The notes beneath the pieces were generated by a model. That model was not told the origin of the DNA. It ran no database searches and saw only the letters and a list, made by a program, of their open reading frames with translations. A program made the position numbers and the translations under genes. Below, piece after piece: positions 1-10,853 of a stretch of DNA of 10,853 nucleotides (position 1 is the stretch's first letter; each line of letters begins with the position of its first letter). Source of the DNA: Nitrososphaerota archaeon (GTDB lineage: Archaea > Thermoproteota > Nitrososphaeria > Nitrososphaerales > JAGGXQ01); NCBI GenBank assembly GCA_021162925.1, contig JAGGXQ010000053.1, positions 1 through 10,853 of the forward strand, given 5' to 3'.

Positions 1-1
1 C

Positions 2-475
2 TCCGGATACCTGAGCTACGTGAGGAAGTGGTGGATCGAAAGGGTCGGGAGCGACTGGCCCGAATTGAGGGACGAGCTCTACCAGATACTCAGGAGGGAG
101 GACATGCTCAAGGAGATAGTCAGGCTCCTGGGCCCCGAGGCCCTCCCCGAAGAGGAGAGGCTCGTCATCGACGTCGCCAGGATGATAAAGCTGGGTTTCC
201 TCCAGCAGAGCGCCTACGACGAGGTGGACTCTTACTGTAGCCCGGAGAAGCAGTACAGGCTCCTCAGGCTCTTCGTCAGGTTTTACGAAGAGGCGGATGA
301 GGCCTTGAGGAGGGGGGTCAAGATAGGCGAAATAAGGAAGTTGCCCCTGATCCCCGAGCTCGTGAGGGTTAAGGGCTCGATAAGGAACGAGGAGCTTCAC
401 AAATTCGACGAGTTGGAGAAGAGGATAGACTCGGCCTTCGAATCCCTGAGGAAGGAGGTGGCGAAGGTTGCCTAA
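2..475 (+). CDS. atpA: A-type ATP synthase subunit A, C-terminal part (5' truncated)
   Basis: This is the catalytic nucleotide-binding subunit of the A1 head of the archaeal A1Ao ATP synthase, which makes ATP from an ion gradient. Only the last 157 residues lie in the window. The reading frame is open from base 2 ([11 protein letters not shown]...), so the GTG at 20 is internal and not the start. What is visible is the C-terminal helical domain, with the family-typical stretch [20 protein letters not shown] followed by [11 protein letters not shown] and FYEEA. The Walker A catalytic region is upstream of the window. The stop (473-475) overlaps the atpB start by 8 bases. A GGAGGTG ribosome binding site for atpB lies inside the last codons, so the two genes are probably translationally coupled. 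The identification is firm from the C-terminal signature and the B-D-K gene order. Confidence 0.95.
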
Positions 476-1877
476 GGTAGGGGGCTTAGAGTACACGAAG
501 GTTGCGGAGATAAGGGGGCCCCTGCTGATAGTCGAGGGGGTGAGCAGGTCGGCATTCGACGAAATGGTCGAGATAGAGCTCCCCGGTGGCGAGAGGAGGC
601 TCGGCAGGGTCCTGGAGGTCGGGGAGGGCAAGGCCGTCATCCAGGTATTCGAGGGGACTTCGGGCATACCGGTTACGGGGACCAAGGTCCGCTTCTTGGG
701 GGACACGATGAGGATACCCGTCTCCGACGAATTGCTCGGCAGGACCTTCGACGGACTCGGAAGGCCGATAGACGGGCTACCTGAGCCGATCGGCGTGGAT
801 ATGAGGGACATAAACGGATTCCCGATAAACCCCGAGAGGAGGGACTACCCTAGGGACTTCATCCAGACGGGCATATCGGTCATAGATGGGATGCTAACGC
901 TCGTCAGGGGCCAGAAGCTACCGATCTTCTCGGGTTCCGGCATGCCCCACAACATGCTCGCCAGCCAGATAGCGAGGCAGGCCACGGTCCCGAAGGGCGG
1001 GGGTGAGTTCGCCGTCGTGTTCGCCGCCATAGGGGTCCAGCACAGCGATGCGATGTTCTTCGAAAGGAGCCTGAGGGAGAGCGGTGCCATAAGGAGGAGC
1101 GTCCTCTTCCTGAACCTCGCCGACGACCCGGCGATAGAGCGAGTGATAACCCCTAGGGTCGCGCTTACCGCCGCCGAATACCTCGCCTTCGACCTGGATA
1201 TGCACGTGCTGGTCATCCTGACGGACATGACCAACTACTGTGAAGCCTTGAGGGAGATAAGCGCCGCCAGGGAGGAGGTCCCGAGCAGGAAGGGATACCC
1301 CGGATACATGTACACTGACTTGGCGACGATATACGAAAGGGCCGGGAGGATAAAGGGGAAGAAGGGCAGCATAACCCAGATGCCGATCCTCTCGATGCCG
1401 AGCGACGACATAACCCATCCGATACCCGATCTGACGGGCTACATAACCGAGGGGCAGATCGTGCTCGACAGGGAGCTGTTCAGAAAGGGCATCTACCCCC
1501 CGGTAGGGGTCCTGATGAGCCTAAGCAGGCTGATGAAAGGTGGCGTAGGGGAGGGGAGGACCAGGGCCGATCACATGGAGGTCAGCAACCAGCTCTACGA
1601 CGCCTACGCCAGGGCGACGGAGCTGAGGGCGCTTTCGGAGATAATCGGAAAGAGCGGCCTGACCCCGATCGACCTCAAGTACCTGGAGTTCGGCGATGCG
1701 TTCGAGAAGCGCTTCCTATCCCAGGGCTACGACGAGAACAGAACCTTGGAGCGGACCTTCGAGCTCGCCTGGGAAGTGCTCTCGATCCTCCCAGAATCCG
1801 AGCTGACCAAGATAAAGGAGGAGCACATAAAGCGCTACTACAAGGGTGGGAAGGGTGTCGGTCAGCTTCGGGTCTAG
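468..1877 (+). CDS. atpB: A-type ATP synthase subunit B
   Basis: This is the non-catalytic nucleotide-binding subunit that alternates with subunit A in the A3B3 head. At 469 aa it has the usual family length. Order of features: N-terminal beta-barrel (about 8-75, with [11 protein letters not shown]), and a nucleotide-binding domain with the degenerate P-loop FSGSGMPHN at 154-162. This loop lacks the GKT of a catalytic Walker A, as expected for [21 protein letters not shown] lies at 312-331, [13 protein letters not shown] at 351-363, and the C-terminal helical domain follows. The TTG at 468 is chosen as start because GGAGGTG at 454-460 lies 7 nt upstream and the protein then begins at the usual place for this family. 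It overlaps atpA by 8 bases and atpD by 23. Confidence 0.97.
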
Positions 1878-2499
1878 GGTTTTACCGACCAAGATAGAGC
1901 TCATAAGGCTGAAGAGGAGTTTGGCGGTGTCGAAGGCGGTCCACAAGGTGCTCGAGGACAAAAGGGAGGTCCTGCTCAAAAGGCTCGACGAGATGATAGA
2001 GAGGGCGAAGAAGGCCAGGGAGGCCGCATCCAAGCCGCTGTTCGATGCCTACCGCTCCCTTTACGACGCTTACATGAGGATGGGGCCGCTCAGGCTGGAA
2101 TCCACGGCCTTGAACACGCCCCCACAGCTCGAGGTCGACGTAAAGGTGATGAAGGTCATCGATATAGAGGTCCCCGTCCTGAAGCTCAAGGAGAAGGGGC
2201 TCGGCCTCACCTACGGCTTTGCGGACACGAGCTCCGCCCTGGACAGGGCCGCCAAGGACATGAGGGACGCCCTCCCCTTGCTCTGCAGGGCGGCCGAAGC
2301 CGAGTGCTCGATATTCAGGGTTGCGAACGAGCTCGAGAAGACCCAGAGGCTCATAAACGCCCTCGAGTACGTGATAATACCATCCTACGAAGAGTCGATA
2401 AAGTTCATATCCTCTCGCCTGGAGGAGACCAGCAGGGAGGAGTTCGTGAGGCTGAAGCACTTTAAGCGAATATTGGAGAGGAGGAGGGTTGGCGCCTAA
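1855..2499 (+). CDS. atpD: A-type ATP synthase subunit D (central stalk)
   Basis: Subunit D is the coiled-coil rotor shaft that runs into the A3B3 head and links catalysis to the membrane ring; it corresponds to eukaryotic V-ATPase D and is functionally like F-ATPase gamma. The N-terminus has the family pattern [13 protein letters not shown], followed by long Lys/Glu/Arg-rich helices and a matching C-terminal helix ([20 protein letters not shown], then [20 protein letters not shown]). These are the two arms of the antiparallel coiled coil. With the GTG at 1855 it is 214 aa. An in-frame GTG at 1846 would add three residues, but GGTG at 1845-1848 is a plausible ribosome binding site only for 1855. 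It lies entirely downstream of and coupled to atpB (23-base overlap). The function is sure; the exact start is less so. Confidence 0.94.
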
Positions 2500-2617
2500 C
2501 CCATTCGAAGAGGCTAGGAGGAGGGTAAGGGAAGAGAAGGAGAAGGCGGTCAAGGCGGTAGAGGATAGGCTGAAGGAGATAGCGGATAAAGCGAAGTCTT
2601 CCCTGAGCTACGTTTGA
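2489..2617 (+). CDS. Small charged helical ORF at the atpE (epsilon) position of the A-ATPase operon
   Basis: A 42-codon ORF starts at TTG 2489, overlaps the atpD stop by 11 bases and ends at TGA 2615-2617. It begins [13 protein letters not shown] and continues as a nearly uninterrupted Lys/Glu/Arg/Ala helix (EEKEKAVKAVEDRLKEIADKA) before ending SSLSYV. AGGAGG at 2479-2484 lies 4 nt upstream of the TTG; GGAG at 2475-2478 is an alternative. The composition and overlap match the style of the operon, where every gene overlaps the previous one. From what I recall of Sulfolobus ATP synthase operons, a small epsilon subunit gene sits between the D (gamma) gene and the proteolipid gene, and this ORF occupies that slot. 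Homology cannot be shown by eye on 42 residues. It could instead be a short peripheral-stalk (G/H-like) helix or a non-functional remnant. Confidence 0.55.
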   Translation: MAPNPFEEARRRVREEKEKAVKAVEDRLKEIADKAKSSLSYV

Positions 2618-2631
2618 TTTTCAATTCGTCA

Positions 2632-2652
2632 CTTTAAAAAACTTATATATAA
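2632..2652 (+). promoter_or_regulatory. TATA-box promoter of atpK, likely leaderless
   Basis: The AT-rich gap between the small ORF and atpK contains TTATATAT at 2643-2650. That is -30 to -23 relative to the A of the atpK ATG (2673), the normal archaeal TATA spacing, so transcription would start at or next to the start codon. A second AT-rich element, CTTTAAAAAA at 2632-2641, could act as an alternative box giving an approximately 10-nt leader. No ribosome binding site precedes the ATG, which fits a leaderless mRNA. A separate promoter would let the multi-copy ring subunit be made in excess over the single-copy subunits. Confidence 0.6.
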
Positions 2653-2672
2653 TTCGAAATCAAGGGTTTGGC

Positions 2673-2987
2673 ATGGAGTTGGTTAAGAAGCTCCTCCCGC
2701 TCTTGGCCATCCTCTCACTATCCGCAATCACCCCAGCGTATGCCGAAACTCCCAACGTCGTCGGCCTTACCCCCGTAGAGTTCAAGCTCCTAACCGCCAT
2801 GATCTCGTTCTCGGTGGCGGCGATAGCCGCGGCTTGGGCGATATGCAGGGCCGGGTCTGCCAGCATGGCCGCCGCAGCCGAAAGGCCAGAGCTCAGGACC
2901 AATGCCATCATAATCGCAGCCCTAGGCGAAGCGATCGGCATCTACGGGATAGTGATGGGGATACTGATACTCGGCCAGGCGGTCTAG
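2673..2987 (+). CDS. atpK: A-type ATP synthase proteolipid subunit K (c-ring)
   Basis: This subunit forms the ion-translocating rotor ring in the membrane. At 104 aa it has an N-terminal signal-like hydrophobic segment (KKLLPLLAILSLSAITPAYA, possible cleavage after AYA at 22-24), then one helical hairpin. TM1 covers about 37-57 (KLLTAMISFSVAAIAAAWAI), and the cytoplasmic loop follows with RAGSASMAAAAERPEL. TM2 covers about 76-100 and carries the ion-binding glutamate in the motif GEAIGIYG (Glu86). It is a single hairpin, like bacterial and Sulfolobus rings, not a duplicated V-type proteolipid. TM1 has no glutamine of the kind used for sodium coordination, which suggests proton coupling (inference). 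It starts at ATG behind its own TATA box, and a T5 tract follows the stop. Confidence 0.95.
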   Translation: MELVKKLLPLLAILSLSAITPAYAETPNVVGLTPVEFKLLTAMISFSVAAIAAAWAICRAGSASMAAAAERPELRTNAIIIAALGEAIGIYGIVMGILILGQAV

Positions 2988-2988
2988 C

Positions 2989-2993
2989 TTTTT
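2989..2993 (+). terminator. Oligo-T terminator after atpK
   Basis: A TTTTT run lies two bases after the atpK stop. Archaeal RNA polymerase terminates at such T tracts without a hairpin. It abuts the TAA stop (2992-2994 on the complement) of the convergent small membrane protein, so it sits exactly at the junction of the two transcription units. Confidence 0.4.
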
Positions 2994-3201
2994 ACTTGAG
3001 CCACCACTCCAAGAACTTGTAAGAGACGAGTATCGATATCGCCAGCCCTATGGTCGAAAGGACGAAGGGCCAAGCCGCACAGTCGCACCTCCTCCCCACC
3101 TCCAATCCCAGCAAGGCCAGACCGACCACGAACCCTGCTATGATGAGCGGGGTTATTACGAGGGCGGTCTTCACCCTTCTGCTCATGGACGTGCCCAGCA
3201 C
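2992..3201 (-). CDS. Small two-helix membrane protein downstream of pyrI
   Basis: This is a hypothetical protein of 69 aa. I do not recognise the family. A basic N-terminal stretch (SRRVK) is followed by a hydrophobic helix at about 12-33 (ALVITPLIIAGFVVGLALLG), a short polar loop with a Cys-Asp-Cys pair (EVGRRCDCAAW, Cys39 and Cys41), a second helix at about 44-61 and the aromatic tail KFLEWWLK. The start is taken as GTG at 3201: it shares one base with the pyrI stop (TAGTG), and GGTGAT in the last pyrI codons is well placed as a ribosome binding site. The longer frame reaching 3252 would run well into pyrI, and the ATG at 3186 has no ribosome binding site. Translation is therefore probably coupled to pyrI. 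The loop cysteines could bind metal or form a disulphide, depending on topology, which I cannot decide. Confidence 0.7.
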   Translation of the reverse strand: MLGTSMSRRVKTALVITPLIIAGFVVGLALLGLEVGRRCDCAAWPFVLSTIGLAISILVSYKFLEWWLK

Positions 3202-3668
3202 TAATCCATCACCAGCTCCTCCGGCTTCAGTATCCTCCCACAGTACCTGCACCTCAGCAGGGGCTTCTCCCTGTCGATTACGTCGAATATCCTGCCTATC
3301 GGCTCCCCGCTGTTGGTTATGCAGGTCGGGTTAGGGCACCTCACCATCCCGTATATCACGCTGGGCAGCCTGACCTTCCTCTTCTCGACGACCCTGTATC
3401 CCTTGATTATGTTTATGGTCGCCCTGGGGGCTATCAGGGCTATCCTGTCGGTCTCTTCGGGGCTCAGGAACCTCCCCTCTATCTTCACTATGTCCTTCCT
3501 GCCGAGCTTCCCGCTGGGGACGTTCATCGCAACCGTCACCACGCTCTTCGTCCCCTTGCCTATCCCGAGTATCTTGAGAACCTCTAGCGACCTTCCGCCT
3601 TCTATGTGGTCGATGACCGTCCCCTCCCTGATCCTCCTGACCAGAAGCTTCTCCTCGGGCAGGCTCAA
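3201..3668 (-). CDS. pyrI: Aspartate carbamoyltransferase regulatory chain
   Basis: This is the regulatory subunit of ATCase. It binds CTP/ATP and holds catalytic trimers together for feedback control of pyrimidine synthesis. The protein is 155 aa, the usual length. The N-terminal effector domain has VRRIREGTVIDHIEGG (10-25), MNVPSGKLGRKDIVKIEGR (48-66) and RATINIIKGYRVVEK. The C-terminal zinc domain has CPNPTC (Cys111, Cys116) and CRYC (Cys140, Cys143), giving the complete four-cysteine site. The start is TTG at 3668: no ATG or GTG lies upstream of the conserved GTVIDHI, and a TATA box is centred about 27 nt upstream, so the mRNA is probably leaderless. It is divergent from pyrB instead of following it as in the common pyrBI operon, and is followed with 1-base overlap by a small membrane protein. 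Confidence 0.96.
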   Translation of the reverse strand: MSLPEEKLLVRRIREGTVIDHIEGGRSLEVLKILGIGKGTKSVVTVAMNVPSGKLGRKDIVKIEGRFLSPEETDRIALIAPRATINIIKGYRVVEKRKVRLPSVIYGMVRCPNPTCITNSGEPIGRIFDVIDREKPLLRCRYCGRILKPEELVMD

Positions 3669-3690
3669 TAACCCGTCTTTACGTGCAAGT

Positions 3691-3704
3691 TTTATAAGCT
3701 TATA
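3691..3704. promoter_or_regulatory. Shared bidirectional TATA box between pyrI and pyrB
   Basis: The 53-bp divergent gap contains TTTATAAG at 3691-3698, which reads CTTATAAA on the other strand. Its centre (3694.5) is 27.5 nt from the pyrB TTG (3722) and 26.5 nt from the pyrI TTG (3668), both the standard archaeal TATA-to-start-site distance. Neither start has a ribosome binding site, so both mRNAs look leaderless. The box is part of a perfect 12-bp palindrome, TATAAGCTTATA (3693-3704), which could also offer overlapping boxes. One TBP/TFB site could thus fire in either direction. Confidence 0.6.
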
Positions 3705-3721
3705 CTCGATGTTTTACCGGC

Positions 3722-4648
3722 TTGGCCAACCCGTTCTACCTTAGGGACGTGGTCTCGATTAAGGACTTCAAGAGGGAAGAGCTCGAGTACCTTTTCGAGC
3801 AGGCCGACAGGTTCCTAGAGATGGGCTACGAGGAGAAGTCGAAGTACGGCAGGGGTAAGCTGATGGCCCTCATGTTCTTCGAGCCGAGCACTAGGACGAA
3901 GACGAGCTTCGAGGCCGCGATGCTATCCATAGGGGGGCACGTAATCGGGTTCAGCGGGGCTAGGGGGACGTCTATGGAGAAGGGCGAGAGCCTATCGGAC
4001 ACCATAAGGGTGATGGATAGGTATGCCGATGTCCTGGTGATAAGGAACCCGATGGAGGGCGCCGCCAGATATGCCGCCGAGCTCGCCGAGCATCCCGTAA
4101 TAAACGCGGGTAGCGGCTCCGAAGAGCACCCTACTCAGGCCTTGCTCGACCTCTTTACGATAAGGAGGCTTAAGGGAGGGATAGACGGGCTGAGGGTCGC
4201 GGTCGTGGGCGATCTGAAGTACGGGAGGACCGTTTACTCCCTGCTCAATGCCTTGAAGCTGTACTCGGTCGAGGTCTACCTGGTGTCCCCGCCCCAGCTC
4301 AGGATAAGGGAGGAGGCCCTCTACGACCTCAAGGGGATGAAGGTACACCTGGACGTCGAATTGGACGAGGCCCTGAAGCTCGCCGACGTGATCTACGTGA
4401 CCAGGATCCAGAGGGAGAGGTTCCCCCATCCGGAGGAGTACGAGAAGGTGAAGGGCTCCTACAAGATAGATGCGAGGGCCATGAGGCTCGTCAAGGAGGA
4501 TGCGATACTCTTACACCCGCTCCCAAGGGTCGGCGAGATAGCTCCGGAGGTCGATGGGTTCGGGCAGGCGAAGTACTTCGAGCAGGTGAGGCTGGGCAGG
4601 TACCTAAGGGAAACGCTGCTGGCCCTGATCCTCAACGAGAACCCCTAG
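3722..4648 (+). CDS. pyrB: Aspartate carbamoyltransferase catalytic chain
   Basis: It catalyses carbamoyl phosphate + L-aspartate to N-carbamoyl-aspartate, the first committed step of pyrimidine synthesis, in the cytoplasm. The 308 aa match the family length. Carbamoyl-phosphate site: PSTRTKTSFE (55-64, with Ser56-Thr57-Arg58-Thr59), Lys87 in TSMEKGES, HPTQ at 136-139, and HPLPR at 265-269. Aspartate site: TRIQRERF at 227-234, with Arg229. All active-site motifs are present. The TTG start at 3722 gives MANPFYLRDVVSIKDF, which aligns well with known PyrB N-termini such as that of E. coli; there is no ribosome binding site, but a TATA box sits about 27 nt upstream. It pairs with PyrI, encoded divergently, to form the regulated holoenzyme. 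Its stop is directly adjacent to the nrdJ stop on the other strand, with no spacer. Confidence 0.97.
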   Translation: MANPFYLRDVVSIKDFKREELEYLFEQADRFLEMGYEEKSKYGRGKLMALMFFEPSTRTKTSFEAAMLSIGGHVIGFSGARGTSMEKGESLSDTIRVMDRYADVLVIRNPMEGAARYAAELAEHPVINAGSGSEEHPTQALLDLFTIRRLKGGIDGLRVAVVGDLKYGRTVYSLLNALKLYSVEVYLVSPPQLRIREEALYDLKGMKVHLDVELDEALKLADVIYVTRIQRERFPHPEEYEKVKGSYKIDARAMRLVKEDAILLHPLPRVGEIAPEVDGFGQAKYFEQVRLGRYLRETLLALILNENP

Positions 4649-6856
4649 CTACTCGCACTTGGTGTACCCGCAGTAGATGCAGTGGTAGCATCCGTTCTCG
4701 TAGACCAGGCCCTTCTTTCCGCAGACAGGGCACTTTCCAAGCCCCTTGTTCTCCTCGGGCAGCCCGATGTAGAGCTCGAGGGCCTTCGCAACGGCATCCG
4801 GCATCGAGTAAAGGGGGATCCCGTTGTCCCAGGTGAAGCTCTCCCCCTGAATCCCCTTGAGGCTCCTTATCACGTACTCGACCTTCCCGCCCTGCTGCAG
4901 GTAAAGGGATATCAGCCTTCCTATCGCCTCCGAGTCCGCCTTCACGTCGGCGCCGGACTTCCCCAGGGTTACGAAGACCTCCTTGACCCCTTCCTCGTCG
5001 CTGTTTATGGTCACGTAAAGGGCCCCTTGAGGCATCCTGAACTTGAGCGTGCTCCCCGTGAGTATCCTAGGCCTCTCGTACCTGACCTCCTTCATCTTCT
5101 TCTTTTTGGTGACCAGGATGCCCTCCCTGGAGCCCTCCCTGTAGACGGTTATCCCCTTGCACCCTAGCTTCCAAGCCAAGAAGTAGATCGCCCCCACGTC
5201 CTCTACGGTGGCGCTCTCGGGCAGGTTGACCGTGCTCGATATGCTCGCATCCACGTGCTTCTGTATGGTGGCCTGCATCCTGACCCTGAACTCCGGCTTT
5301 ATCTTGTGGGCCGTCACGAAGTAATCTGGGAGCTCGTCCTCCCCGACCCCGAACTTCTCCATGTACTCCTTGACTAGGGGGTGGTACACCTTGTACTCCT
5401 TCTTGGTGAGGGACTCTGACCTCCTGGTGTAGCTTATCGAGAAGATCGGCTCTATCCCGGATGAAGTGCCCGCAAGGACGGAGCCGGAGCCGACGGGCGG
5501 GACGGTCAGGAGCGCGACGTTCCTGAGCCCGTACCTCCTTATCTTCTCCTTCAGGGCTTCGGGTAGCCTCTCAACGAATTCACTCTTCATGTGCTTTTCG
5601 GGATCGAAGGCCGGGAACGGACCCTTCTCCTTCGCCAGCTCCACGCTCTCGTCGTAGGCTATGACCTTTATCCTCTCCATGAGCCTGTCCACGAACTCCA
5701 AGGCCTCCTCGCTGTCGTACCTTATCCTGAGCTTCGCGAGCATGTCGGCGAGCCCGGTCACCCCTAGGCCTATCCTCCTAGACCTCAGGCTCGACACCTT
5801 CTGCATGATCAACGCGTGCCTGTCTGCGTTGTAGTCGAGCACGTCGTCCAGGAACCTAACCCCGTACCTCACCACCTGCTCGAGCTTGACCCAGTCGACC
5901 TCGGCTTTGTCCGTGAACTCTTCCTTCACGAACGCCGATAGGTTCACGTTGCCCAGGCAGCAGCACCCGTACTCCTCCAGGGGCTCCTCGCCACACGGGT
6001 TAACCCCCTTCACCTCCATCCCGTTGTACTCGCTCGTGCTCCCCCTCTTCACCGTATCCCAGAATATAAGCCCGGGCTCGGCGCTCTCCCAGGCGGCCTT
6101 GACGAGCCTATCCCATATGTCCCTCGCCCTCACCTTCTTCTTCACGCTCACCCTCTCGTTTTCGAACTTGAGCTCGAACTCCTCGTCGTTCTCGACCGCC
6201 CTCATGAACTCGTCGCTAACCCTTACGCTTATGTTCGCGTACCTGACGTTCCTCCTCTCCGGGTCCCTCTTTATGTCTATGAAGTCCAAGATGTCGGGGT
6301 GATCGACGCGCAAGGTTATTATCAGGGCCCCCCTCCTCCCCGACTGGCCTATCGTCCCCGTTACCGTGCTGAAGACCTCCATGAAGCTAACCGAGCCGGT
6401 CGAGAAGATCGCGGCGTTGTTCACGGGGGAGCCCTTCGGCCTGAGGACGCTTATGTCGACCCCGACCCCTCCCCCTAGGCTGTAGGTCCTCGCGGCCTCC
6501 TTGCACCAGTCGAATATCGCCTCCAGGGAGTCCTCCTTGAGCGGGATGTAGTAGCAGTTCGTCAGGGTGGCCCTCCTCTTCTGCCCCGCACCGAACATTA
6601 TCCTCCCCCCTGGGACGAACTTGAAGCCCTCGAGCATCCAGTAGAACTTATCCTCCCACTCCCTCCTCTTCTCCTCGGGCTCGACGCTGGCTATCTCCCT
6701 GGCGACCCTGTGCCACATCTCGATCGGCGTCTTCTCCAAGACCCTCCCATCCTTGTCCTTTAGGGCGTACTTCTCCGTAAACACCCTGGCCCTCAACTCG
6801 TCCCCCTTGAAGAACTCGAGGGTCTCCTCGCTGATCCCCTCTCCGATTACCTCCAA
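4649..6856 (-). CDS. nrdJ: Class II (adenosylcobalamin-dependent) ribonucleotide reductase
   Basis: It reduces ribonucleotides to deoxyribonucleotides with a thiyl radical made from adenosylcobalamin, independently of oxygen. The protein is 735 aa. Motifs in order: LTNCYY with redox Cys101; LGGGVGVDISVLRP (127-140); NPCGEEP with the radical Cys288 and Glu290; the second redox cysteine within CCC (298-300); VPPVGSGSVLAGTSSGIEP (452-470); a TSCPD-type domain at about 600-675 (LYVTINSDEEGVKEVFVTLG); and a C-terminal cysteine cluster CPVCG...CYHCIYCG..KC (Cys709, 712, 723, 726, 729, 734) for re-reduction. No ATP-cone precedes the body, so overall dATP inhibition through that domain is not expected. 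The TTG start at 6856 is supported by GGAGGG 6 nt upstream. Alternatives (TTG codon 21, GTG codon 25) lack that. It lies downstream of, and in the same direction as, a reductase-like regulator candidate. Confidence 0.95.
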   Translation of the reverse strand: MEVIGEGISEETLEFFKGDELRARVFTEKYALKDKDGRVLEKTPIEMWHRVAREIASVEPEEKRREWEDKFYWMLEGFKFVPGGRIMFGAGQKRRATLTNCYYIPLKEDSLEAIFDWCKEAARTYSLGGGVGVDISVLRPKGSPVNNAAIFSTGSVSFMEVFSTVTGTIGQSGRRGALIITLRVDHPDILDFIDIKRDPERRNVRYANISVRVSDEFMRAVENDEEFELKFENERVSVKKKVRARDIWDRLVKAAWESAEPGLIFWDTVKRGSTSEYNGMEVKGVNPCGEEPLEEYGCCCLGNVNLSAFVKEEFTDKAEVDWVKLEQVVRYGVRFLDDVLDYNADRHALIMQKVSSLRSRRIGLGVTGLADMLAKLRIRYDSEEALEFVDRLMERIKVIAYDESVELAKEKGPFPAFDPEKHMKSEFVERLPEALKEKIRRYGLRNVALLTVPPVGSGSVLAGTSSGIEPIFSISYTRRSESLTKKEYKVYHPLVKEYMEKFGVGEDELPDYFVTAHKIKPEFRVRMQATIQKHVDASISSTVNLPESATVEDVGAIYFLAWKLGCKGITVYREGSREGILVTKKKKMKEVRYERPRILTGSTLKFRMPQGALYVTINSDEEGVKEVFVTLGKSGADVKADSEAIGRLISLYLQQGGKVEYVIRSLKGIQGESFTWDNGIPLYSMPDAVAKALELYIGLPEENKGLGKCPVCGKKGLVYENGCYHCIYCGYTKCE

Positions 6857-6862
6857 AGCGAT

Positions 6863-6904
6863 CCCTCCAATTTTTAGTCTGACAGTTAATTTGGTATTTT
6901 ATAT
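6863..6904 (-). promoter_or_regulatory. nrdJ promoter and ribosome binding site
   Basis: On the complement, ATATAAAA (6904 down to 6897) is a good TATA box. It predicts a start site near 6874 and an approximately 18-nt leader. That leader carries GGAGGG (6868-6863), 6 nt before the TTG at 6856. The nrdJ mRNA therefore has a true leader, unlike most other promoters in this window, and nrdJ can be transcribed independently of the gene upstream. Confidence 0.55.
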
Positions 6905-6946
6905 TAATTAGTTTGACAAAGCAATTAACGGAGTGAGTTAACGAAG
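6883..6946. repeat. TTAA/TTGAC repeat cluster around the nrdJ TATA box (candidate operator)
   Basis: GTTAATT (6885-6891) and AATTAAC (6923-6929) form an inverted pair that brackets the nrdJ TATA box, with outer bases also similar (CAGTTAATT against the complement CCGTTAATT). ATTAAT (6903-6908) lies between them, and GTTAAC (6937-6942) follows. TTAACGGAG (6925-6933) recurs as TTAACGAAG (6938-6946). TTGACAAAG occurs exactly twice nearby (6913-6921 and 6978-6986). Such an arrangement would suit a dimeric or multimeric repressor, but AT-rich promoter DNA can produce these motifs by chance. Confidence 0.35.
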
Positions 6947-6969
6947 GTTGACTAGGAAGGCTCGGTGTG

Positions 6970-6974
6970 AAAAA
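6970..6974 (-). terminator. Oligo-T terminator after the reductase-like regulator gene
   Basis: The complement reads TTTTT at 6974-6970, about 28 nt past the TGA stop of the 662-aa gene and upstream of the nrdJ promoter. It fits archaeal T-tract termination and would separate the two transcripts, though read-through into nrdJ is possible. Confidence 0.35.
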
Positions 6975-7001
6975 GAATTGACAAAGGTGGATAGGGATCG
7001 G

Positions 7002-8990
7002 TCAAGCCTGGCCGATCGTGGAGTACCGGAGGAATGAAGTGGACCCGCACTTGCTACACCTGTCGTCCCTCTCGTTCCTGAACCCGCACACCTTGCAGAC
7101 GTACATCTCCTTCGCCATCCTGACGTAGGGGAGCCTCGGGATCGGCCCCCCTTCGGCCTTAAGGTTCACGACGTACCCGCCGTTCAGCAGCCTATCCGCC
7201 CTGCTCAGCCCCCTGACGAGCCCGTCGAAAAGCCCCTTGCCGTCGATTACGGGGGCTTGGCTGTAGGCCATCCTGTTGCCGCTCAGCATCACTATCCCCT
7301 TGCCGAACTTGTCGACGTCGAGCCTGGCGAGCCTCTCCGAGCTCTCGTCGTTGACCATGCATATCCCTATCCCCTCGCCCCTATCCCTCACCACCCTGGA
7401 GGCGGTCTCGAGTATCTTGTCCTGAAGGGCGAAGTAATCGTCGGTGGGGGGCTCTTCGCCTATGAGGCTCCATATCGCCTCCCTCAGCCCGACCAGGTTT
7501 ATGGACATCGGGATGTAATCGGCCGATAGCACCCCCTTGTCGAGCGAAAGGAGCGGCAGAAGCCCCTTCCTGAGCACCTCCAGAAGGGCGCGCTTCCTGG
7601 CCTCCAAGGCATCTATGCACGTCTGGAGGGCTATCGCGAGCTTGGCCCTAAAGTAGGACTCGTCCATGTTGGCGTCGTAAGCCAGCCTAGGCAGGTTCAG
7701 CGAAAGGGAGTGAAGGGCGATCGTCAGGCTCGGCAGGGCGGGCGGGGAATCAAGCTCCCTCTTTATCCCCATGTACGACCTGATCCCATCGTTCAGCAGG
7801 CCCACCCTCCCCCCTCGGTTCGCTATGGAAACGAGCCTATCGATGGCGTCCTCCTTGGCGTCCTTGACGATCAGGGCTATCCGGGGTATCGGGGTTATCG
7901 AAAGGTAGTGCTCGTAGGCGTCGAGCAGGGGCCCTATATCGTAGCCCCCATCTATCACGAACCCGACCAGGGGCTTGCTGTACCCGTTCCTTACCAGGTA
8001 GGGGATCAGGGAGAACGCCTTGGACAGCATGCCGGGGTTCACGGCCCCATGCCTTTCTAGGTAGCTCGAGAAGTTGAACAGGGTTATCCCCTTAGACGCC
8101 TCCTTCCCCAGCAACGATATGAGCGCCAAGAGCCCCGTAATCGAGTCGTAAAGCCCCGAAGGCCTCCCGACCCTAGGTATGCTGAGTAGCTTGTCGCTGA
8201 ACTCGACCCCCTTAAATTCGTCGAGGTCTACAAAGACGTCGTCGGGCATCAGGCCCCAGGTCCCGACGTTCAGGAGGCATATGTCCCCCGAGAAGTGAGA
8301 GTCTACCACGTCCTTCGGCAGCTTCGAGAGCAAAAAGTACTCGGATAGGACCGCATCCGAAGTCTTTGCCATCACCCCTTCTATCCCGTCGAGCCTGCCG
8401 TCGCTGTCGTTTATGAGCTGGGTAACGTCGTAGACGGGCATCCCGAGCCTGGTGAGCTTCTGCCTGTACTCCTCGTACCCGTGCTCGAGCAAAAGCGCGT
8501 TCACCAGCTCCCTTATGAGCTGGGCGGTGAGGTAGATCGTCTGGAACTTGTAGAGCCTGCTCTCGGCCTCGCTCGTTATCTTCTGGGCGAGCTCCACGGG
8601 CATCCCGGCCTCCCTCACCAGGCTCTGGAGTATCTTATCCGGGTTGAACTCCTCCAGCACCTGCTTCGAGGTCCTGACGTAAAGCTTCCCGCTCTCCACC
8701 ATCGACTGCTCCTCTATCTGCCTGCTCAGGTTCACTATCAGCCTCCCCAGGTTGGTTATGTAGTACTTCTTCTCGGATCGGTTGAGGCCGACCAGGTTCT
8801 GCCTCACGAGCTTCCTCAGGTGGTATGCGAACTTGCCGCTCTCCTTCTTAGACTTGAAGCCAGCGTAGGCCTTTAGCTCGGAGTAGGTCATCGGGCCCTT
8901 GTTGTTGAGTATCTTCAGTATCTCGAGCCTGTTGACCGATGATATAACGGAGTATATCGACTTAACCCTCCTGCTCGATCCCTCCGACAT
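7002..8990 (-). CDS. Winged-helix / ATP-cone / inactive NrdD-like protein, candidate ribonucleotide reductase regulator
   Basis: The 662 aa fall into four parts. An ArsR-like winged helix covers about 10-95 (RLEILKILNNKGPMTYSELK, then KFAYHLRKLVRQNLVGL and the wing KKYYITNLGRLI). An ATP-cone covers about 102-192 (LYVRTSKQVLEEFNPDKIL, LTAQLIRELVNALL, YEEYRQKLTRLGMPVYDV). A body at about 205-610 resembles class III anaerobic reductase NrdD: SHFSGDICLLN (231-241), LSLNLPRLAYDAN (429-441), LLEVLRKGLLPL (469-480), ADYIPMSINLVGL (490-502), ESSERLARLDVDKFG (549-563). A C-terminal zinc ribbon carries Cys632, 635, 645 and 648. There is no cysteine from 239 to 457, where the catalytic thiyl cysteine should be, and the chain ends STIGQA where NrdD would continue into its RVxGY radical loop. 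It is therefore probably not an enzyme. Inferred role: a dNTP/ATP-sensing transcription factor for nrdJ. ATG at 8990 is preceded by a TATA box at leaderless distance. Confidence 0.85.
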   Translation of the reverse strand: MSEGSSRRVKSIYSVISSVNRLEILKILNNKGPMTYSELKAYAGFKSKKESGKFAYHLRKLVRQNLVGLNRSEKKYYITNLGRLIVNLSRQIEEQSMVESGKLYVRTSKQVLEEFNPDKILQSLVREAGMPVELAQKITSEAESRLYKFQTIYLTAQLIRELVNALLLEHGYEEYRQKLTRLGMPVYDVTQLINDSDGRLDGIEGVMAKTSDAVLSEYFLLSKLPKDVVDSHFSGDICLLNVGTWGLMPDDVFVDLDEFKGVEFSDKLLSIPRVGRPSGLYDSITGLLALISLLGKEASKGITLFNFSSYLERHGAVNPGMLSKAFSLIPYLVRNGYSKPLVGFVIDGGYDIGPLLDAYEHYLSITPIPRIALIVKDAKEDAIDRLVSIANRGGRVGLLNDGIRSYMGIKRELDSPPALPSLTIALHSLSLNLPRLAYDANMDESYFRAKLAIALQTCIDALEARKRALLEVLRKGLLPLLSLDKGVLSADYIPMSINLVGLREAIWSLIGEEPPTDDYFALQDKILETASRVVRDRGEGIGICMVNDESSERLARLDVDKFGKGIVMLSGNRMAYSQAPVIDGKGLFDGLVRGLSRADRLLNGGYVVNLKAEGGPIPRLPYVRMAKEMYVCKVCGFRNERDDRCSKCGSTSFLRYSTIGQA

Positions 8991-9011
8991 CCCTCCAAAC
9001 TACCGATCTTG

Positions 9012-9020
9012 ATTAATAAA
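9012..9020 (-). promoter_or_regulatory. TATA box of the reductase-like regulator gene
   Basis: The complement reads TTTATTAAT from 9020 to 9012, which is -30 to -22 relative to the ATG at 8990 and predicts a leaderless mRNA. GGAGGG sits directly against the ATG, too close to serve as a normal ribosome binding site. Next to the box lie GGTTAAGG (9021-9028) and TTTGAC (9031-9036), motifs also seen before nrdJ. Confidence 0.5.
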
Positions 9021-9035
9021 GGTTAAGGAATTTGA

Positions 9036-9053
9036 CCCGAGATTCTGATCGGG
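9036..9053. repeat. Short dyad CCCGA-N8-TCGGG between divergent promoters
   Basis: CCCGA (9036-9040) and TCGGG (9049-9053) form a 5-bp inverted repeat with an 8-base spacer. It lies between the leftward TATA box of the 662-aa gene and the rightward TATA box of ABCE1. It could be a regulator site or a chance pairing. Confidence 0.25.
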
Positions 9054-9057
9054 AAAA

Positions 9058-9069
9058 GGTTATTAAGAG
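9058..9069 (+). promoter_or_regulatory. TATA box of ABCE1
   Basis: GGTTATTAAGAG, with core TTATTAAG at 9060-9067, predicts transcription from about 9090 and a leader of roughly 9 nt before the TTG at 9099. No ribosome binding site is visible. Confidence 0.45.
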
Positions 9070-9098
9070 AAGCGGGGCCCTTCGATTCGAGCCCATCC

Positions 9099-10853
9099 TT
9101 GCCGAGAGCCCACAGGGTAGCCGTGATAGATAGGGAGCTCTGCAGCCCTAGGAAGTGCAACCTAGAGTGCATGAGGTTCTGCCCGGTCAACAGGATTGGG
9201 GGGAAGTGCGTATCCCTTGAGGATGGGATGGTCGTGATAGTCGAGGAGCTCTGCACCGGTTGTGGCATATGCGTGAAGAAGTGCCCCTTCCGAGCCATAA
9301 CCATAGTCAACCTGGCCGAGGAGCTAGAGGAGGAGAGGATACACCAGTACTCGAAGAACGGGTTCAGGCTCTACAGGCTGCCCAGGCTTAGGAGGGGAGG
9401 GGTCGTCGGCATAGTCGGGAGGAACGGGATAGGGAAGACCACGGCCATCAAGATACTATCGGGCCTGCTGAAGCCGAATCTTGGCAGGTTGGACGAAGAG
9501 CCCGAATGGGACGACGTGATCGACAGGTTCAGGGGGACCGAGCTCATGGATCACTTCAGGAGGATAGCGAACGGGGAGCTCAGGGCCTCCGTGAAGCCCC
9601 AAGCGGTCTACGAGCTCCCCAGGGTCTGGAAGGGGGACGTTAAGACTTTGCTCGAGCTTGAGGACGAGAAGGGGACCTGGAGGGAGCTGGCGGAGGAGCT
9701 GGGGCTCTCCGGCGTCCTAGATAGGAAGGTGAGGGAGCTCAGCGGTGGGGAGCTTCAGAGGCTTGCGGTGGCGGTCGCAGCCTCTAGGGATGCGGAGCTC
9801 TACGTGTTCGACGAGCCCTCATCCTACAACGACGTATACCAGAGGCTCAGGGTCTCCAGGGTGATAAGGGGGCTCTGCGGGTCGGATAACGAGGTCCTGG
9901 TGGTCGAGCACGACCTAACCTTCCTCGACTACCTGAGCGATTACATACACGTCCTCTACGGCGAGCCTGGGGTCTACGGGATAGTTTCGCCCGTCTTTCC
10001 AGCCAGGACGGGGATAAACGTCCTCCTAGATGGCTACATACCGACCGACAACGTAAGGTTCAGGAAGGAGAGCCTCAGGTTCGAGGTCTATTCCCCGATA
10101 GGGGTCGAGGCGGAAGGGGAGGTGCTCGCTAGGTACGGTTCGCTCAGGAAGAGCTACGGCCCATTCACCCTAGAGGTTGAGGCTGGAAGCCTGAGGAGGG
10201 GCGAGATAATCGGCATCCTGGGGGCGAACGCGCTCGGAAAGACGACCTTCATGAAGATGATTTCGGGGGTCGAAGAGCCCGACGAAGGCGAGGTAGAGCT
10301 CGACGTCAAGGTTGCCTACAAGCCTCAGTACCTATCGGCGGACTACGAGGGGGATGTCGAAAGCCTCCTCAACCTGGCATCTAGCGGCAGGTATTCGAGC
10401 CAGCCCTACCTATCTTCGATAATCCTGCCCTTAAGGTTAGATAAGCTCTACCAAAAGCCGGTCAAGGAGCTGAGCGGCGGGGAGCTCCAAAAGGTAGCGG
10501 TCGCGGCGACCCTGCTCAGGGATGCGGAAGTCTACGCCCTAGATGAGCCATCGGCCTTTTTGGACATCGAGGACAGGCTCGCCCTCGCCAAGCTCATCCA
10601 GAGGTTCGTCAAGGATTACGGGAAGGCCGCGATGATCATAGACCACGACATCCAGCTCATAGACATAACCTCTGACAGGATAATGGTCTTCCTAGGGGAG
10701 CCCGCGGTGAGGGGGCATGCCAGCGAGCCGATGCCTAAGGAGAGGGCCATGAACCTCTTCCTCAAGGGGCTGGGCATAACCTACAGGAGGGACCCCGATA
10801 CGGGCAGGCCTAGGGTGAACAAGCCCGATAGCAGGCTCGACAGGGAGCAGAAG
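9099..10853 (+). CDS. ABCE1/RLI ribosome-recycling ATPase (3' end cut by window)
   Basis: It splits ribosomes into subunits after termination, with archaeal release factor or Pelota, using two ATPase sites and two 4Fe-4S clusters. The frame is open for 585 codons to the window edge and reaches GRPRVNKPDSRLDREQK, normally close to the family's C-terminus. Iron-sulphur domain: Cys15, 20, 24, 28 (CSPRKCNLECMRFCP) plus Cys37, and Cys52, 55, 58, 62 (CTGCGICVKKCPF). NBD1: Walker A GRNGIGKT (107-114), FRGTEL helix-loop-helix insert, LSGGELQ (214-220), Walker B with Glu239. Hinge: YGEPGVYGIVS. NBD2: Walker A GANALGKT (375-382), LSGGELQ (458-464), Glu483 in LDEPSAFLD. The TTG start at 9099 gives MPRAHRVAVIDRELC, matching the family. 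Odd point: the NBD1 D-loop reads SSYND where SSYLD is usual. Divergent from the 662-aa gene. Confidence 0.97.
   Translation, partial: MPRAHRVAVIDRELCSPRKCNLECMRFCPVNRIGGKCVSLEDGMVVIVEELCTGCGICVKKCPFRAITIVNLAEELEEERIHQYSKNGFRLYRLPRLRRGGVVGIVGRNGIGKTTAIKILSGLLKPNLGRLDEEPEWDDVIDRFRGTELMDHFRRIANGELRASVKPQAVYELPRVWKGDVKTLLELEDEKGTWRELAEELGLSGVLDRKVRELSGGELQRLAVAVAASRDAELYVFDEPSSYNDVYQRLRVSRVIRGLCGSDNEVLVVEHDLTFLDYLSDYIHVLYGEPGVYGIVSPVFPARTGINVLLDGYIPTDNVRFRKESLRFEVYSPIGVEAEGEVLARYGSLRKSYGPFTLEVEAGSLRRGEIIGILGANALGKTTFMKMISGVEEPDEGEVELDVKVAYKPQYLSADYEGDVESLLNLASSGRYSSQPYLSSIILPLRLDKLYQKPVKELSGGELQKVAVAATLLRDAEVYALDEPSAFLDIEDRLALAKLIQRFVKDYGKAAMIIDHDIQLIDITSDRIMVFLGEPAVRGHASEPMPKERAMNLFLKGLGITYRRDPDTGRPRVNKPDSRLDREQK

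Follow-up and report, generated by a model that had tools for sequence, protein, structure and literature searches.

A stretch of archaeal DNA of 10,853 nucleotides, hereafter the window, carries a gene whose product appears to have turned from a ribonucleotide reductase into a regulator. The window comes from a Nitrososphaerota archaeon with a genome of 838 kb (assembly GCA_021162925.1, contig JAGGXQ010000053.1, positions 1-10,853 of the forward strand), and the 662-residue product of its gene 7002-8990 is, as judged from sequence and predicted fold, a non-catalytic class III reductase (NrdD) with an ArsR-like winged helix fused to it. It belongs to an ancient and constrained family, spread over a large group of archaea, that is co-located with reductase genes, and for these proteins with winged helix, ATP-cone and non-catalytic NrdD body we use the working name dead-NrdD family. 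We consider it likely that the protein is a one-component regulator derived from an archaeal class III reductase, which controls reductase genes through its winged helix and ATP-cone. Since the catalytic parts are lost, a DNA-binding head is present and a working reductase gene usually lies alongside, the protein is probably the switch of that adjoining gene.

Domain layout and lost catalytic residues

The features of the gene are as follows.

7002..8990, minus strand: dead-NrdD gene (winged helix, ATP-cone, non-catalytic NrdD body and zinc ribbon), 662 aa, ATG at 8990
8730..8960, minus strand: winged helix-turn-helix, residues 11-87 (Pfam DUF7347, ArsR-like)
8421..8681, minus strand: ATP-cone region, residues 104-190 (Pfam match 104-176), the most conserved part of the family
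8223..8240, minus strand: residues 251-256, DVFVDL, with D251 at the reductive-Cys position of working NrdDs (alignment)
7764..7769, minus strand: G408-I409 at the position of the Cys-Cys pair of working NrdDs (alignment)
7047..7097, minus strand: zinc ribbon Cys 632, 635, 645 and 648, retained from NrdD (alignment)

The open reading frame described by the first-pass annotation, which gave no strand, is real and lies on the minus strand, and its winged helix, ATP-cone and reductase body are recovered by profile searches. Pfam models exceed their cut-offs for DUF7347 (residues 11-87), the ATP-cone (PF03477, 104-176; 31.7 bits, cut-off 25.8) and NRDD (422-565, E = 5e-16), and all 63 members of the family alignment match the three at E <= 0.01. 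Sequence profile and predicted fold agree on the winged helix of the head, which bears out the proposed fusion to a DNA-binding-type domain; the HTH_5 and HTH_metalloreg models stay below their cut-offs there (18.4 against 22 and 20.3 against 55 bits). The class III origin of the body is likewise supported, as a profile of the family matches solved NrdD structures at 5e-33 and the model contains the NrdD barrel and zinc ribbon. On these sequence matches, the homology to NrdD is well beyond chance. The four-Cys zinc ribbon had also been seen, and it is present; its comparison to the DNA-binding ribbon of the reductase-gene regulator NrdR does not hold, because working NrdDs carry the same ribbon, which is thus an inheritance from NrdD and no counterpart of that of NrdR.

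The suggestion that the protein is a pseudoenzyme is borne out by an alignment of 63 family members (the window protein, 30 database proteins and 32 locus translations) with 24 working NrdDs of the same phylum, namely 20 fetched sequences, L048-L050, which lie beside dead forms, and the fragment L005 of the window's own genome. The reductive Cys (Cys79 in T4) is found in 23 of the 24 NrdDs, the last being a fragment with a gap, and in 0/63 family members, the window protein having Asp251. All 24 NrdDs possess the active-site Cys-Cys pair (Cys-Cys, SCCR or finger-loop Cys), whereas 62 of the 63 relatives have Gly and one has Ala at the first position, and a single one has Cys at the second. The Glu-Asn-x-Asn flap, present in 23/24 NrdDs, has its Glu and first Asn gapped throughout the family and its second Asn retained in 7/63. 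Finally, the glycyl-radical motif R[VI]xGY occurs in 24/24 NrdDs versus 0/63, in agreement with the annotated lack of RVxGY; one family member has Gly in the radical-site column, without the next Tyr. The tabulation of catalytic Cys and radical Gly hence speaks against catalysis. Across the 62 NrdD-invariant columns, 15 are retained in at least 57 of the 63 members and 28 in six or fewer; zinc-ribbon Cys persist in 62/63, and the Gln columns invariant in NrdD, which may belong to the specificity site, are mostly lost.

In the window protein, Cys occupies positions 238, 458, 544, 632, 635, 645 and 648 only, so that the stretch 239-457 is Cys-free exactly as annotated; the reading of the CxxHDL region as DVFVDL and of a chain end two residues past G660 (...TIGQA) was equally accurate. 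G660 is not conserved as a radical site, for 47/63 family tails lack a Gly more than three residues past the last Cys. The TIGR02487 score of the protein is 63.5 bits (cut-off 326). Altogether, alignment and model show that the body retains the NrdD fold and zinc ribbon and is devoid of the residues for radical chemistry.

These data bear directly on whether the protein could still act as an anaerobic reductase by means of a non-standard active site, which we regard as very improbable and rejected. Many records are named accordingly, the relics listed above (the second-pair Cys, the radical-column Gly and the second flap Asn) survive in a few members, and the NrdD of T. maritima is active without a finger-loop Cys. 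The same enzyme, however, requires both Cys of SCCR and retains its radical at Gly621 (accessible part of PMC4493059), and no family member among the 63 keeps such a set. Moreover, the reductive Cys is missing in every member, and the gene adjoining that of the window protein encodes NrdJ.

Conservation, spread and the neighbouring nrdJ gene

Sequence conservation is distributed unevenly over the chain. In the family alignment, the commonest residue has an average frequency of 0.72 in the winged helix and 0.76 in the cone; the averages for flap connector and barrel are 0.38 and 0.45. Columns at >=95% number 28 of 87 in the cone and 15 of 77 in the winged helix. By this measure, the putative sensing and DNA-binding parts are retained and the former chemistry part is not. 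In a tree of 31 of the 63 family members and 22 of the 24 NrdDs (fragment L005 and the masked sequence L106 were dropped), a single branch with support 100/100 splits the two groups; being midpoint-rooted, the tree gives no order of origin between them.

We surveyed the distribution within Thermoproteota. At E <= 0.001, a 13-member profile matches 307 of the 398 genomes drawn from the phylum; this count includes weak matches, possibly to ordinary NrdDs or cones. All 74 genomes counted from the window's order, which includes ammonia-oxidising archaea, match among the matches listed, the absence of misses being deduced from the sorting. A separate draw within the order found the family in 75/81 genomes and 38/38 genera. 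Within this draw, a strong NRDD match exists only in the window's own genome (a fragment on contig C30, 5.9e-159); no match in the remaining 80 genomes is better than 2.8e-42, which falls on the dead form itself, as compared to 1.6e-144 or better for the 20 fetched working NrdDs. The NrdG profile exceeded its cut-off in 0/81 genomes, but in only 3/14 control genomes, and the NrdG-like match directly behind the window genome's real nrdD is likewise below the cut-off. By database name, the relatives belong to Nitrososphaerales, Nitrososphaeria, Methylarchaceae, Thaumarchaeota and Bathyarchaeia. The warning that they may be labelled anaerobic reductases applies to many records ("anaerobic ribonucleoside-triphosphate reductase") and not to all, some already being called "helix-turn-helix protein" or "ArsR family regulator". 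By such labels, genomes are credited with an anaerobic reductase that is not apparent in them.

Given this conservation, it is scarcely credible that the gene is a decaying pseudogene or an annotation artefact. Loss of the catalytic parts and partial or split matches in a few genomes (G082, G299, G311 and G330 in the phylum draw, G424 and G430 in the order draw) would fit decay, but long open frames in most listed places, presence in every sampled genus of the order, the constraint on winged helix and cone and the fully supported one-branch split from NrdD contradict it. In G311, the dead-NrdD gene (L082:5387-7464) lies in two frames, where a sequencing error or a broken copy is possible.

The genes next to the dead-NrdD gene in the window are the following.

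4649..6856, minus strand: nrdJ, class II (B12-dependent) ribonucleotide reductase, likely target (PF02867, E = 6.6e-116; NrdJ_Z 582 bits, cut-off 400)
3722..4648, plus strand: pyrB, aspartate carbamoyltransferase, recurrent neighbour (profile match)
3201..3668, minus strand: pyrI, regulatory chain of aspartate carbamoyltransferase, recurrent neighbour (profile match)

In loci of the Nitrososphaeria type, nrdJ lies downstream on the same strand in 44/44 cases (45 with the window), at a distance of 68-880 bp (median 212). This count leaves aside L002, where the contig ends, and counts L085-L087 once, as their genomes are already in L009-L036. All six nrdJ neighbours tested, including that of L038, pass the NrdJ_Z cut-off. 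On the other side of the dead-NrdD gene, the divergent gene of the ATPase RLI/ABCE1 starts at 9099 (NF009945, 820 bits, cut-off 469).

Candidate operators and proposed mechanism

Two promoters in the window carry candidate operator elements.

9022..9036, minus strand: exact GTCAA-N5-TTAAC inverted repeat in the dead-NrdD gene's own promoter, directly upstream of the TATA-like TTTATTAAT (by eye)
6885..6982, minus strand: seven GTYAA/TTRAC half-sites in the nrdJ promoter, next to the TATA-like TATAAAATAC (by eye)

The GTYAA pattern was spotted by eye before the tests, and the following window statistics are thus post hoc. The seven half-sites of the nrdJ promoter compare with 0.93 expected (0/2000 shuffles), and include overlapping near-repeats at 6903-6917 and 6915-6929 with one mismatch each; the dead-NrdD gene's own promoter has two half-sites, together one exact repeat, versus 0.23 expected (P 0.02). 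Allowing one mismatch, GTYAA-N5-TTRAC occurs at four sites in the window against 0.32 expected, a number reached in 0/200 shuffles; of these, nrdJ itself contains one, and the two promoters share the other three. The exact pattern is found at two places in the whole genome, one of which is 9022-9036, and a reversed control pattern at one. The second place, C1:2887, lies within a radical-SAM reading frame, as judged from locus coordinates, and was taken as chance. Among 1280 one-degenerate 5-mers, GTYAA ranks 5th in the window's nrdJ promoter, after AT-rich ones. For archaea, a promoter scan of the sigma-70 type carries no meaning.

Comparison across lineages gives a mixed picture. Upstream of nrdJ, the block with the highest conservation among 15 aligned loci of family f2 (without L010, which had no anchor) reads G-K-TGT-n-AA-N5-TT-(GA). 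In a raw ranking of 1024 half-sites at gap 5 over 14 lineages, GTCAA takes rank 22 in the nrdJ upstream regions and rank 36 in those of the dead-NrdD gene; after correction by shuffling, in 13 of these lineages (L001, with a short upstream region, was dropped), it rises upstream of nrdJ to 3rd at gap 5 and 1st at gap 6.

We propose the following mechanism, in which each step is conditional. A duplicated copy of an archaeal class III reductase probably gave rise to the protein. Its N-terminal winged helix would bind inverted repeats in two promoters, that of the neighbouring reductase gene and that of its own gene, and the ATP-cone would read ATP/dATP. The nucleotide state could be relayed to the winged helix via a long connecting helix (residues 80-100) together with a dimer of the NrdD type, such that plentiful dATP would turn the reductase genes down, although the sign of regulation could be either. 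The outcome would be a nucleotide-dependent control of nrdJ and of the dead-NrdD gene itself. If this is true, the protein would clearly exemplify how the allosteric apparatus of an enzyme can outlive catalysis and be reused for gene control.

Contrary observations, rival explanations and relation to NrdR

Several observations weigh against the proposed regulator. First, the operator pattern does not generalize: of 14 other loci, only one has a half-site count upstream of nrdJ with P <= 0.05, pattern scans in eight genomes return 25 matches versus 37 for the reversed control, and the shuffle-corrected rank of GTCAA upstream of the dead-NrdD gene is 19th (gap 5) and 10th (gap 6) of 1024. With fewer matches than the control and no clear enrichment in other lineages, GTYAA-N5-TTRAC was rejected as a general operator. 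Second, 6/81 genomes of the order, 67 to 99% complete, have no family member. Third, the Lys-Arg pair that touches the phosphates in studied cones (Lys19/Arg20 in StNrdD, K50/R51 in NrdR; excerpts of PMC12662201 and PMC9110341) is replaced by Thr107-Ser108 (Thr in 60/63, Ser in 58/63). Fourth, a genuine NrdR coexists with the dead-NrdD family in f6, a family of Bathyarchaeia type. Fifth, in the 23 loci assigned to the Bathyarchaeia type from database names, the downstream gene is a reductase gene in only four (nrdD in three, nrdJ in one), and a convergent pyrB or pyrI is the neighbour in 18; nrdD accompanies it in two of the 18, and three loci have none of these genes. The link to reductase genes hence takes the form of nrdJ in the window and in all 44 loci of the Nitrososphaeria type, and of nrdD in 3 of the 23.

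As a side observation to the second point, G402 (99% complete) has neither a family nor an NRDD match, whereas its close relative G412 has the family, which may be a loss or an assembly gap. With regard to the third, Arg106 directly precedes Thr107-Ser108, and the resulting VRTS is also found in the working NrdDs L048 and L097, so that the dead-NrdD cone may still bind nucleotides. By manual count, Glu56 and Phe58 of NrdR (same excerpt of PMC9110341) correspond to Glu113 and Phe115, each in 63/63, and Lys62 to position 119 (Lys/Arg in 62/63).

The pyrB/pyrI neighbourhood raises the idea that the protein regulates pyrimidine supply (pyrBI) or general nucleotide balance, with nrdJ as one of several targets. 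In 12 of the 18 loci concerned (L037, L039, L040, L042-L047, L049-L052, L054, L055, L088-L090) the gene is within 50 bp, in L043 pyrI even overlaps the dead-NrdD gene, and pyrB follows nrdJ in the window, in L001, in L003 and in 8 of the 13 loci L071-L083. Yet in these 18 loci the neighbour is convergent, which places its promoter on the far side, and the pyrI/pyrB spacer of the window contains no GTYAA repeat (best 4 mismatches). We consider this explanation unlikely, and give a similarly low weight to the protein being a partner rather than a gene regulator. In that case, the dead NrdD body would assemble with NrdJ (or NrdD) into mixed oligomers and tune enzyme activity, the role of the winged helix being limited to autoregulation or to tethering of the complex to DNA. 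Co-location with nrdJ, in some genomes nrdD, would be expected of a subunit no less than of a regulator, and the barrel fold is retained; against this, conservation is focused on winged helix and cone, and one and the same family adjoins enzymes of class II and of class III, and in most Bathyarchaeia-type loci has neither as neighbour.

The one-component regulator that we favour would, by analogy, be NrdR-like in its working, yet it lies outside the NrdR family. NrdR is described as rare in archaea (excerpts of PMC9110341 and PMC12176259), and the dead-NrdD family offers a testable candidate for the setting of archaeal reductase expression, complete with target gene, operator candidates and a model. 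TIGR00244 exceeds its cut-off in 22/300 genomes, all of f6, and has no match in the window's genome. NrdR is not among the matches listed in the comparison that supports the barrel fold, an absence that argues neither way. The first-pass interpretation is supported overall, but the dead form is not a simple replacement of NrdR everywhere, as f6 has a genuine NrdR too. In six f6 genomes whose coordinates were compared (G148, G184, G207, G231, G281 and G285), NrdR is close to a working nrdD (e.g. G184:C1:600543-603073) and the dead form lies elsewhere, which suggests a division of work there, if both are regulators. More tentatively, and with rather less confidence than an even chance, we envisage a regulator family in at least two archaeal lineages that uses a whole dead ribonucleotide reductase as dNTP sensor; cone and old dimer-interface specificity site could report nucleotide balance, coordinating nrdJ/nrdD and pyrBI, as the missing archaeal counterpart of NrdR.

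The analogy to NrdR that we infer lies in an ATP-cone joined to a DNA-binding domain and in the nucleotide-read control of reductase genes, here proposed. NrdR differs in combining a DNA-binding zinc ribbon with a cone (model of 147 positions, about 150 aa), whereas the 662-aa protein has an N-terminal winged helix and a whole dead NrdD body. With NrdD (PF13597, TIGR02487) it shares a homologous body, fold, cone position and zinc ribbon, but not the reductive Cys, Cys-Cys pair, complete Asn-x-Asn flap and glycyl-radical motif, and it has the winged helix in addition. The head resembles ArsR/SmtB and MarR winged-helix regulators in fold and sequence profile, the putative sensor being a reductase body with ATP-cone instead of a small-ligand or metal site. 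WhiA, a homing endonuclease relative, is similarly a regulator from an enzyme family, although from another enzyme and another group of organisms, and the start of its abstract mentions no cone (PMC3781837). We found no title or abstract start describing a winged-helix NrdD regulator, most subscription papers and preprints being outside the search, and no mention of DUF7347 in the literature searched; the accessible main text of two reductase-wide phylogenies (PMC9531940, PMC9669993) contains neither "archaea" nor "helix-turn-helix".

Some further observations concern the neighbouring reductases. In L049 (3313-3639) and L050 (3433-3756), a small CxxC protein, glutaredoxin/thioredoxin-like by eye, is encoded between the dead form and the working nrdD, and may be the reductant of the adjoining NrdD. 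The nrdJ products of L071-L083 and L085-L087 have 880-928 aa compared to 735 aa in the window, and in the three tested (L071, L077 and L085) an N-terminal stretch of 110-120 residues matches NrdD profiles at their cone end, unlike the window nrdJ. The latter ends in a Cys-rich tail (CPVCGKKG...CYHCIYCG, 4649-4760) that resembles the zinc-finger tail of class II reductases described in an excerpt of PMC5704485.
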